Part shown: piece by piece, positions 2,841-5,611 of the stretch
How positions within the stretch are numbered: position 1 is the stretch's first letter
Layout of the letters: every line of letters begins with the position of its first letter
Assembly: GCF_019857205.1 (NCBI RefSeq)
Contig: NZ_JAHWXO010000009.1
Coordinates: 1 to 64,000, forward strand
DNA length: 64,000 nt
Source of the DNA: Qipengyuania pacifica
Lineage (GTDB): Bacteria; Pseudomonadota; Alphaproteobacteria; Sphingomonadales; Sphingomonadaceae
Direction: 5' to 3'
Program-made: the position numbers and the translations under genes
The notes under the pieces: generated by a model
Told to the model about the DNA's origin: nothing
The model's database searches: none
Seen by the model: the letters and a program-made list of their open reading frames with translations, nothing else

Positions 2841-3073
2841 TTATATTCCTTGCCACTCTTCCCTCATCCGCAGCGTTTCAATAAACGCTTCCTGCGGAAT
2901 GCTCATATTACCATAATCGCGCATCCGGGCCTTGCCCTTTTTCTGCTTCTCCAGCAGCTTCTTCTTGCGCGTGATGTCGCCGCCGTAGCATTTGGCGGTC
3001 ACTTCCTTGCGCAGCGAGGCGATTGTTTCGCGGGCGATCTCCTTGCCGCCGATGGCGGCCTGGGTCGCGATTT
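2841..3073 (-). pseudogene. lepA: Displaced lepA 3'-end fragment, copy A
   Basis: About 77 codons matching the end of the intact lepA at 3776-5611, on the same strand. The match runs from the IQAAIGGK region through the [19 protein letters not shown] block to the end of the protein. Its terminal residues read [18 protein letters not shown] followed by WQGI and a TAA, against [18 protein letters not shown] in the intact gene. Differences are scattered and the frame is preserved, so this looks like a homologous tail from another lineage, not a recent copy. A stop codon (TAA, 3072-3074) lies directly upstream in frame, so it is not part of a longer gene. It sits between the ABC-3C operon and DUF6481 and is read here as an attachment-site remnant of an element that integrated in lepA. 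Confidence 0.85.
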
Positions 3074-3135
3074 ATAAACGAACGAAGGCGTCACTAGTGG
3101 CGTTCAGCGGCCCGCTCTCGCAGGCCGCCCTCACC

Positions 3136-3462
3136 TCACCTCTTCTTGCGCGCCTTGCGGGCGGCGTATTTCGCGTCGCGCTTGGCTTTCAGTTCCGCTT
3201 CGGTCGGCTCCGGAATGGCGGCGGCTTCGGCGGCTGCCTCGGCAGCGGCGATCTTTTCGGCCTTGGCCTTGGCGATCGCTTCGCGGCGCGCGGCGCTCTT
3301 TTCGGCGGCGGCGGCTTCGCGCGCCAGGCGGGCCTCGCGGCGCTTGGCTTCGACCTCAGGGTCGACCGGCGGCTTGGCGGCCATTTTCTTCAGCGCCTTT
3401 TCGCGGGCCTTGTCGGCCATGGCTGCGCGTTCCTGGAAAGTGGGTTGCTTGAATGAAGGCAT
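3136..3462 (-). CDS. DUF6481 family protein
   Basis: A 108-residue, very Ala/Lys/Arg/Glu-rich protein predicted to be almost entirely helical. It opens with FKQPTFQERAAMADKAREKAL and closes with RDAKYAARKARKKR, the usual start and end of the DUF6481 family found in sphingomonads. Function is unknown. The composition (high charge, alanine-rich helix, basic tail) would fit a nucleic-acid or ribosome-associated role, but that is only a guess. The gene lies within the zone of repeated lepA tails, between copies A and B, so it may be cargo of an older insertion. Its codon use is GC-rich like the core genome, in contrast to the ABC-3C genes. No strong ribosome binding site is seen before ATG 3462. 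Confidence 0.7.
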   Translation of the reverse strand: MPSFKQPTFQERAAMADKAREKALKKMAAKPPVDPEVEAKRREARLAREAAAAEKSAARREAIAKAKAEKIAAAEAAAEAAAIPEPTEAELKAKRDAKYAARKARKKR

Positions 3463-3534
3463 TAGGGATCGTGTCGTTTCTGGTTGGCCGGCAGGCTGCC
3501 GGCTGGAAAAATCGGGCTGCGCGGGGTGCGGCGA

Positions 3535-3594
3535 TTACGCCTCGCCCGTCCGCAGCGCGGCAATGAAATCCTTCCGCGGAAGGCTCGCATTACG
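3535..3594 (-). repeat. lepA 3'-tail repeat, copy B
   Basis: Sixty bases encoding, in frame with a TAA stop, RNASLPRKDFIAALRTGEA, which lines up with the lepA C-terminus ([18 protein letters not shown]). Its stop is 119 bases from the stop of copy C. Immediately upstream (minus strand) is a GC-rich hairpin, CCCCGC paired with GCGGGG, as also found before copy C. Confidence 0.8.
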
Positions 3595-3653
3595 CCCCGC
3601 CTTGTGCGGGGACAGCTCGCCTTACCGCACGCGGGCGTGTTTGAGAATGGGGA

Positions 3654-3713
3654 TCATTTCTCAGCCATCCGCAGCGTGGCGATGAACGCTTCGTGCAGAA
3701 TGCTCGCATTACC
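3654..3713 (-). repeat. lepA 3'-tail repeat, copy C
   Basis: Sixty bases encoding, in frame with a TGA stop, GNASILHEAFIATLRMAEK, the closest short match to the lepA terminus. Its stop lies 122 bases downstream (minus strand) of the real lepA stop. The preceding hairpin CCCCGGCGAAGGCCGGGG corresponds to that before copy B with different paired bases. Copies B and C with their flanks form tandem units of about 120 bases. Confidence 0.85.
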
Positions 3714-3775
3714 CCCCGGCCTTCGCCGGGGCAGGCCGCCCTTCGGGCGCTCCCGCATCTTCGGAAATGAGAGAC

Positions 3776-5611
3776 TCACTCTTCTCCCATACGCAGCGCT
3801 GCGATGAAGGCTTCCTGAGGGATCGAGACGTTTCCGTATTCCCTCATTCTGGCCTTCCCCTTCTTCTGCTTCTCCAGCAGCTTCTTCTTGCGCGTGATGT
3901 CGCCGCCGTAACATTTGGCGGTCACGTCCTTGCGCAGCGCGGCGATGGTTTCGCGGGCGATGACCTTGCCGCCGATGGCGGCCTGGATCGGGATCTTGAA
4001 CAGGTGGCGCGGGATCAGGTCCTTCAGCCGCTCGCACATGCCGCGGCCGCGTTCTTCCGCCACGCTGCGGTGGACGATCAGCGACAGCGCGTCGACCGGC
4101 TCGTTGTTGACGAGGATGTTCATCTTGACGAGGTCGCCCTCGCGGCTGCCGATCTGTTCATAGTCGAAGCTGGCATAGCCGCGGCTGATCGATTTCAGCC
4201 GGTCGTAGAAATCGAACACCACTTCGTTCAGCGGTAGTTCGTAGCTCACCTGCGCGCGGCCACCGACATAGGTCAGATTGGTCTGGATGCCGCGGCGGTC
4301 CTGGCACAGCTTGAGGATCGCGCCGAGATATTCGTCGGGCGTGTAGATGACCGCCTTGATCCACGGTTCTTCCACCGTCTCGATCCGGTTGACGTCCGGC
4401 CAGTCGGCGGGATTGTGGATCTCGATGGTCTTGGCGTCCTCGTTCTTCGAATGGCCGAGGTGGACCCGGTACACGACCGACGGGGCCGTGGTGATGAGGT
4501 CGAGATCGTATTCGCGGCTGAGGCGTTCCTGGATGATTTCCAGGTGCAGCAGGCCGAGGAAGCCGGCGCGGAAGCCGAAGCCCAGCGCGGCGCTGCTTTC
4601 CATCTCGTAGCTGAAGCTCGCATCGTTCAGCCGCAGCTTGCCGATGCTCTCGCGCAGCTTCTCGAAATCGGCGGCGTCGACCGGGAACAGGCCGCAGAAG
4701 ACCACGGGCTGGACTTCCTTGTAGCCTTTCAGCGCCTCGGGCGCCCCGTTCTTCACCGTGGTGATGGTGTCGCCGACGCGGGCCTGCTCCACCTCCTTGA
4801 TCTGCGCGGTGATGAAGCCGATTTCGCCCGGGCCGAGTTCCGGCAGGTCGGTGCGCTTGGGGGTGAAGCAGCCGACGCGGTCGATCAGGTGCTGGGTGCC
4901 GCCCTGCATGAACCTGACCTGCTGGCCCTTCTTGATGACCCCGTCCATCACGCGCACCAGGATGACGACGCCGAGGTAGGGGTCGTACCAGCTGTCGACC
5001 AGCATGGCTTTCAGCGGTGCGTCGCGGTCGCCCGTGGGCGGCGGGATGCGCTTGACCAGCGCTTCCAGCGTTTCCTCGATGCCGATGCCGGATTTGGCGC
5101 TGGTGAGGACGGCGCCGCCTTCCTCCCACGGGCCGGTGGCCTCGATGCCGACGATTTCCTCGATCTCCTCGGCCACGCGCTGCGGTTCGGCGGCGGGCAG
5201 GTCGATCTTGTTGATGACGGGGACGATCTCGTGGTCGTGCTCGATGGACTGGTAGACATTGGCCAGCGTCTGCGCTTCCACCCCTTGCGCCGCGTCCACC
5301 ACCAGCAGCGCGCCCTCGCACGCGGCCAGGCTGCGGCTGACCTCGTAGGCGAAGTCGACGTGGCCGGGCGTGTCCATGAGGTTAAGCTCATAGGTCTCGC
5401 CATCGCGCGCGGTGTAGTTGAGGCGCACGGTCTGCGCCTTGATCGTGATGCCCCGCTCCTTCTCGATGTCCATGTTATCAAGGACTTGCTCGGACATCTC
5501 CCGGTCGGTCAGCCCCCCGGTAAACTGGATCAACCGATCAGCCAACGTCGACTTGCCATGGTCGATGTGGGCTATGATGGAGAAATTGCGGATCTTGGAA
5601 AGGTCGGTCAT
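3776..5611 (-). CDS. lepA: Elongation factor 4 (LepA), back-translocating GTPase
   Basis: A 611-residue translational GTPase. The G domain has AHIDHGKST (residues 14-22), DTPGH and NKID motifs. It is followed by the EF-G-like domains II, III and V and the LepA-specific C-terminal domain with the conserved [16 protein letters not shown] block. EF4 binds the ribosome and GTP and is thought to remobilise stalled or mistranslocated ribosomes, acting at the inner membrane or in the cytosol. Length is normal for the family. Three further partial copies of its 3' end lie directly downstream (2841-3713), so the gene end appears to be an integration target. Because each such event swaps the final codons, the present C-terminus may itself have come from an element. 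It is followed upstream by a minus-strand GGDEF/EAL gene 47 bases away. Confidence 0.98.

Follow-up and report, generated by a model that had tools for sequence, protein, structure and literature searches.

Displaced lepA 3' ends at a probable exchangeable slot for defense genes in Sphingomonadales

The 3' end of lepA, the gene for elongation factor 4, is a hot spot of gene exchange: foreign ends have replaced native ones, inserts have been added behind the gene, and tyrosine integrases are absent from the neighboring DNA at the thresholds used here. The explanation that seems to us best, and somewhat more probable than not, is that in Sphingomonadales this 3' end bounds an exchangeable slot on the left, filled by single-crossover inserts that carry lepA ends of their own.

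The window analyzed here (64,000 nt of the Qipengyuania pacifica genome, starting at the edge of contig C54) contains an intact lepA on the minus strand (3776..5611; Pfam LepA_C 4.1e-50, GTP_EFTU 2.8e-54), which forms the left wall of the slot and has its stop at 3776. Outward from this stop on the same strand come two short displaced lepA ends (A and B), a DUF6481 gene, and a long displaced end (C). The sequence-only reading had claimed three further lepA 3' ends on the lepA strand, and all three are present: A at 3654-3716 (translated as NASILHEAFIATLRMAEK and a stop), B at 3535-3597 (NASLPRKDFIAALRTGEA and a stop), and C at 2854-3071. Its description of them as ends in tandem, each in frame with a stop, needs amendment. 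A and B do end in frame, and each comprises about 57 nt of lepA (the last 18 or so codons) behind hairpins: a hairpin pair at 3712..3759 (minus strand) precedes A, and a diverged hairpin stretch at 3598..3639 (minus strand) precedes B. They are of a different class from C, and the complete DUF6481 gene (3136..3462, minus strand, 108 aa; Pfam 1.4e-9) lies between them and it. Copy C is native in type, 218 nt long and 85% identical to the intact lepA end (E 7.8e-68), versus 38 aligned nt for copy A (E 7e-5); its own stop has been lost (TGA to TGG), and the frame runs on to a stop three codons further, at 2841. The repeat is not scattered at unrelated loci of this genome: no substantial lepA-end copy was found outside the locus, those among the matches listed being 16-32 nt long with E 0.0045 or worse. 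ARAGORN found no tRNA at the site (window positions 1-8000).

Beyond copy C lies an operon on the opposite strand, with genes for an LmuB-like AAA ATPase of the Lamassu/ABC-3C kind (838..2757, plus strand; Pfam AAA_23 1e-7, PADLOC LmuB 7.5e-41), the ABC-3C middle component MC5 (333..866, plus strand; Pfam 2.2e-31), and the C-terminal part (CTD9) of an ABC-3C effector (1..357, plus strand; Pfam 4.3e-31), cut by the contig end. With ATPase, middle component and split effector side by side, these profile matches identify the cargo as a putative Lamassu-like ABC-3C system. The DNA that follows the slot in a locus of the same genus (L127) was found near the start of another contig of the window's own genome, C45, which opens with a frame running off the contig start, probably the N-terminus of the effector, and then has a conserved gene, C1, at 825-1817. 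The island is continued on C45, and the slot thus measures about 4.6 kb if the two contigs abut.

C1, on the strand opposite lepA, forms the right wall of the slot, and follows lepA in 70 of the 182 loci that could be oriented, many of those without it being short or distant. An impression that C1 encodes a helix-turn-helix protein was given up: two members tested have no Pfam match. The lepA-C1 distance in loci without copies has a median of 3189 nt (51 loci; quartiles 2686-3450, range 859-4974), and the same order of lepA, 2.6-4.0 kb of variable DNA, C1 on the opposite strand, and shared core recurs in 15 of 16 same-genus and neighboring genomes. The interior is another matter. Where lepA bodies agree at 95% or better (36 pairs of genomes), the 48 nt past the stop have an ungapped identity of 0.26-0.30, the chance level. 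L183 and L189, whose flanks are 96% identical over 10.7 kb, have no common stretch of 150 nt or longer before +3524/+2656; L183 and L195, with flanks 94% identical, have no slot stretch of at least 150 nt in common. Only 12 of the 105 pairs among fifteen slots share such a stretch, ten of them an HNH_2 gene (L102, L108, L126, L127, L195), which at a cut-off of 60% identity is present in 20 loci, and the rest a piece of roughly 170 nt (L108, L189, L195); at least 300 nt of cargo is common to 142 of the 2415 pairs of 70 slots. An arrangement constant in all relatives and lacking variable cargo, which would have told against a hot spot, was not seen. The empty site that the sequence-only reading had proposed looking for has a near equivalent in L130, where the core DNA found past C1 in L129 begins 24 nt after the lepA stop, the usual C1 being absent. 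The slot, in short, swaps its cargo across many genera and keeps a fairly constant size.

Much of this cargo appears to be defensive. Chosen proteins from 18 slots picked by hand gave a PADLOC match of E 1e-10 or better in 15; L127 had a weak match (2e-4), and L150 and L102 had none, L150 having a NACHT N-terminal domain (Pfam). The kinds matched include PD-Lambda-5, type II restriction-modification, DRT UG5-nitrilase, Vsr with methylase, retron II-A, NsnA, IetA-like, HEC-01 and LmuB; since PADLOC includes general methylase and ATPase models, some of these are best called likely defense genes. With predicted defense genes varying between conserved core genes, the slot has the makeup of a core defense hot spot.

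Displaced lepA ends recur well beyond the window. More than one LepA C-terminal match (query: the last 72 residues) was found in 15 of 199 family genomes, this one included; the extra match is downstream on the contig and strand of lepA in 12, and matches are split over contigs in G022, G188 and G191. When the last 20 LepA residues were slid along the DNA of 102 loci (the window, L089-L109 and L125-L204, a selection enriched for genomes with extra matches), the downstream hits scoring at least 35 numbered 27 on the lepA strand and one on the opposite strand, and in an earlier, partly overlapping set of loci 23 and none: lepA-end copies exceed chance. At this score at least one extra end is present in 22 of the 102 loci (L164 at threshold) and, in a set of 80 loci, in L010, L012, L016, L031 and L046; the 27 loci L061-L067 and L069-L088 have none. 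The displaced ends fall into two classes: short copies, which begin (by eye) at about -60 to -57 relative to the lepA stop, behind two hairpins, and long copies, whose left edges lie anywhere between -83 and -796. The ten slots that have a copy beyond +400 are longer (median 4322 nt, versus 3189 in the 51 without copies; p 1.5e-5), and the stretch behind the last copy in these ten is ordinary (3269 nt, p 0.11), which indicates that the long displaced ends record extra insertions, older ends having been pushed outward as had been proposed.

Resident lepA ends, too, are often foreign. In the window, about the last 76 nt of the gene (3776..3851, minus strand) are foreign to its own genus: against nine same-genus genomes the last three 30-nt bins are 63-87% identical and the earlier bins 73-100%; the last 75 nt are 95% identical to those of L094, from another genus, versus 90% for the lepA body; and the change-point against L129 lies at -79. 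The replacement end that incoming DNA was supposed to bring is thus visible. More widely, divergence rises significantly toward the lepA 3' end in 63 of 241 pairs (body divergence 0.1-8%) and falls significantly in none. The change-points lie at -80..-61 in 39 of the 63, at -120..-61 in 49, and at -121 to -380 in 14; in 12 non-overlapping pairs, seven are at -79..-61 and five at -160..-361. This clustering is partly built in, as the difference between recoded (foreign) and native ends is confined to the stretch from -76 onward. On a quick lepA-body tree, 26 copy carriers require 22 changes, versus a mean of 24.3 for shuffled labels (16 of 200 at or below 22), so that the distribution of the copies is close to random; the ten recoded ends, with ten changes against a shuffled mean of 9.8, are likewise scattered. 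The tree has 145 rows and the change-point set 123, loci short of lepA or of downstream sequence being excluded from both, as were L096 (apparently the same record as L016), L202 and L060; a clustering of downstream ORFs was set aside, antisense frames dominating it. The hot-spot interpretation of the sequence-only reading is borne out: the lepA 3' end is a hot spot of integration or exchange.

The anatomy of the displaced ends bears on how they arose. Several are two-part, the left arm having decayed and the right part being better preserved: in L098, 13 mismatches fall between -158 and -113, and none from there to the stop. In L203 the hinge lies near -121, and in the second L090 copy near -115 (-113 to -124 with L098 and L186 included); it is closer to -82 in L100 and to -149 in the first L090 copy; a two-part build is not clear in window copy C, L184, L097 or L089. 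Such a build is expected if the insert brought the left arm and the right part is the host's former working end. In L133 the resident lepA is native, and the displaced end is recoded, with its own hairpin and short copy still behind it. The crossovers fall within or beside a conserved stretch that lies some 77-120 nt ahead of the lepA stop.

The inserts between lepA and the displaced ends are small, about 0.35-5 kb, and of several kinds. A DUF6481 gene occupies this position in the window, L012, L184 and L031 (Pfam 3.5e-10 in the last); in L020, L022, L149 and L191 it directly follows a lepA that has no recognizable copy behind it, and it may therefore be an old neighbor. L097 has a gene for CcdB together with a probable one for CcdA, and L098 one for a ParE toxin that has a small partner upstream, both of which we read as putative toxin-antitoxin pairs; L099 has a RadC-like protein, L089 an insert of 4.3 kb that comprises an IetA-like ATPase and 794 nt of lepA, and other insert kinds occur elsewhere. 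A two-gene unit in L090, L133 and L203 has a DUF2283 gene second and a first gene with no Pfam match. That its inserts in L133 and L090 share their lepA arms was considered and not borne out: the arms match each other at 59/69 positions, versus 61/69 and 53/70 to their own lepA. The insert DNA of these two (421/460 alike) is scarcely closer than their lepA bodies (442/500), so that vertical descent of the insert is possible. Among the matches listed, the two-gene insert is at lepA in G275, G066, G254 and G030, and G079 has part of it on a contig other than that of lepA. The L133/L090 arms, the copy-less DUF6481 loci, the G079 insert elsewhere, and the displaced ends that are not two-part all count against the mechanism proposed below.

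In that mechanism, DNA segments of one or a few genes with a lepA 3' fragment would enter, probably as circles (Campbell type), by one crossover in the lepA end. About the last 76 nt or more of lepA would be swapped for the incoming end, so that the gene remains whole, and the former end would be pushed outward along with the older cargo. In the window, repeated rounds may have left the native-type end C in front of the Lamassu-like cargo, with the DUF6481 segment and the short hairpin ends nearer lepA, and the resident gene now with a foreign end. As a best guess, crossing-over within the insert-borne lepA end would be carried out by RecA or by a recombinase acting in trans. RecA requires a well-matched stretch, and the conserved one at -77 to -120 would suit either RecA or a site-specific enzyme; the failure to find an enzyme and the varying left edges of the copies tilt the choice modestly toward RecA, and the crossover is accordingly put down, provisionally, to homologous recombination in this stretch rather than to a dedicated recombinase.

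A different possibility, with a real chance of being right though we would not expect it, is that whole slots are exchanged by homologous recombination between the flanking core genes, displaced ends being by-products of imprecise joining. The walls are convergent genes with their 3' ends facing the cargo, a stretch in the 3' part of C1 is (by eye) nearly identical in five genomes with differing neighboring sequence, and the 14 change-points upstream of -120 fit such exchange as well. Alone, however, it yields no lepA-end duplicates, and it predicts C1-end duplicates about equally often: similarity to the C1 end was seen within one of 70 slots, versus 15 of 70 for the lepA end. It is compatible with the single-crossover mechanism, and the likelihoods assigned to the two need not add up to certainty.

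The same asymmetry between the lepA and C1 ends also fits a site-specific recombinase (tyrosine or other), in trans or since lost, that recognizes the lepA 3' end, the inserts being non-autonomous elements with that site, comparable to CIMEs or integron cassettes. This is a tentative alternative, rather unlikely in our view. The clustering of change-points at -80..-61 suits it, as do the hinges near -113 to -124 in four copies, the start (by eye) of the short copies at about -60 to -57, behind hairpins, and the 21 tyrosine-recombinase domain matches in the window's own genome. Against it are the spread of long-copy left edges, the change-points beyond -120, and the search for an enzyme. No tyrosine integrase was found by profile or phmmer (E 1e-3 / 1e-5) among the 9,624 ORFs that follow lepA in 179 loci, with a reach of 345 nt to 18 kb (median 14.2 kb; at least 9 kb in 153 loci); the queries were 18 tyrosine recombinases of the own genome, each of which was recovered when omitted from the query set, and five ORFs with sub-threshold phmmer matches (best E 0.005) were not counted. 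A classical integrase-bearing element therefore finds no support. The sequence-only reading had advised looking for a tyrosine recombinase left of position 1; C45:1-9000, on the continuing contig, has no match at E 0.01. A virus with a bare lepA end as attachment site was also sought; the 16 viral contigs matched all have longer LepA stretches, two of them cut by a contig edge. As to plasmids with a bare end, matches covering 80% or more of the 72-aa query came from 64 records, and a bare end was not shown. Clustered breakpoints fit a site-specific recombinase as well as the single-crossover mechanism.

Less probable again is a reading in which the lepA 3' end is the attachment site of small, integrase-free, integron-like cassettes (toxin-antitoxin, DUF6481, defense), each with a lepA end as its recombination site, which would be captured in tandem, the newest nearest lepA, and moved by host recombination alone; if true, the coding end of a conserved translation gene would itself be a mobile site.

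The short copies with their hairpins could instead be a selected RNA or DNA structure (terminator or 3' UTR) and not insertion scars, which we regard as improbable. Their position is suggestive (10 of the 16 listed hairpin-linked copies start 50-64 nt past the lepA stop), yet they also occur behind cargo (L089 +5322, L133 +941). Covariation in the hairpins, from an alignment that omits L091 and includes L134 (a hairpin without a copy), is mixed: 92% of pair cells form, and beyond this share two of five measures, double-change cells (12 versus 4.9) and the covariation score, exceed all 500 shuffles, whereas two are no different: 345 of 500 shuffles reach the observed number of double-change pairs, and 476 of 500 that of further pair types. 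Two haplotypes may account for the two covarying pairs, the unit tested is not unusually stable (z -0.46), and no Rfam match came near cut-off in window positions 2500-4300. Tandem duplication of the lepA 3' end in place, the copies decaying afterward and no DNA entering from outside, would explain why they are on one strand and adjoin lepA, but is very improbable given the foreign resident ends, the genes between copies, and the scattered distribution of the copies.

How do defense systems move between bacteria when the mobile element is invisible? The lepA locus offers an insertion record written as displaced lepA ends, and a defined place at which RecA-driven and recombinase-driven exchange might be separated; the lepA and C1 flanks could also be used to harvest uncharacterized defense systems.

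Several known systems are comparable. Integron gene cassettes are small genes with a repeated site, arranged head to tail, toxin-antitoxin genes included, and the lepA inserts resemble them in each of these respects; unlike integrons, they have no integrase found at the site, a repeated site that is a coding 3' end, and few units. CIMEs, and the tandem accretion of ICEs and IMEs, involve segments that lack an integrase and are arrayed in tandem at a single site, between att-like repeats. Such segments are present at lepA, unlike the integrase-bearing mobile partner, of which none was seen there. As a target, lepA, which the sequence-only reading did not take for a widely described one, is already in the literature: PMC10688831 reports it as a phage integration site in Latilactobacillus curvatus, the same gene, though for integrase-encoding prophages in a distant phylum. 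A lepA defense slot in Sphingomonadales was not found described in the open-access literature searched, which is weak evidence of absence. In genomic islands at gene 3' ends, the incoming end restores the target, and displaced target fragments mark the endpoints; examples of such islands are those at tDNAs (Islander, PMC4383910), trmE (PMC8409611) and, in Dehalococcoides, ssrA (PMC3146451). At lepA likewise the incoming end restores the gene and the old end is displaced. The lepA site differs from them in having no integrase gene (of the tyrosine type) near, inserts of the small sizes given above, a protein-gene target, and displaced fragments whose left edges vary even though the change-points cluster. 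Also close are cDHS1 and cDHS2 of Pseudomonas aeruginosa (PMC10250203), which have variable defense cargo between two core genes, are not bound to one element type, and at many sites lack a detectable mobile gene, all as at lepA. For cDHS1 the size given is 1-224 kb (median 26 kb). The lepA slot is a variant of these known defense hot spots, distinguished by its size of about 3 kb, by an edge that can be mapped to a gene 3' end, and by the displaced ends that it keeps as a record.

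A gene for an HNH_2 protein, in lepA orientation, recurs at 60% identity or more at locus L102 (4455-5351) and at 19 further loci, and is frequently the final gene ahead of C1, the conserved gene that bounds the variable slot next to lepA; in two of the loci, L059 and L026, only some 200-245 nt separate its start from lepA. At L097 (2126-2685), a CcdB gene and its likely partner are flanked by lepA and a displaced lepA end (an extra copy of the 3' end, read as an insertion scar); CcdB-like genes at L177, L187 and L191 are likewise found within 0.8 kb of lepA, there without such a copy. 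The cargo of L183 includes a transposase gene (DDE_Tnp_1, DUF4096; 12102-12935), adjoining a methylase-like ORF.

Within the recoded lepA end of six loci (L012, L093, L094, L095, L131 and L136), a CAGAATGAG motif stands opposite a CTCATTCTG motif directly past the stop codon; the pair is a possible inverted repeat flanking the replaced end. At the other wall of the slot, C1 contains short tandem repeats, recognized by eye (L226:1190-1320). One record filed among viral contigs, L109, carries a complete lepA (protein 91% identical) followed by C1 and, because the whole gene is present with C1 behind it, is probably bacterial chromosome despite its filing.

Two adjacent PAS-GGDEF-EAL-PilZ proteins of 741 and 738 aa are encoded in the window (5659-10190); with 45% identity across 721 positions, they are tandem paralogues. 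Elsewhere in the same genome, a 3.7-kb contig (G000:C25; L207) encodes three consecutive tyrosine recombinase domains (1106-3467), an array that we take to resemble a recombinase-in-trio element.
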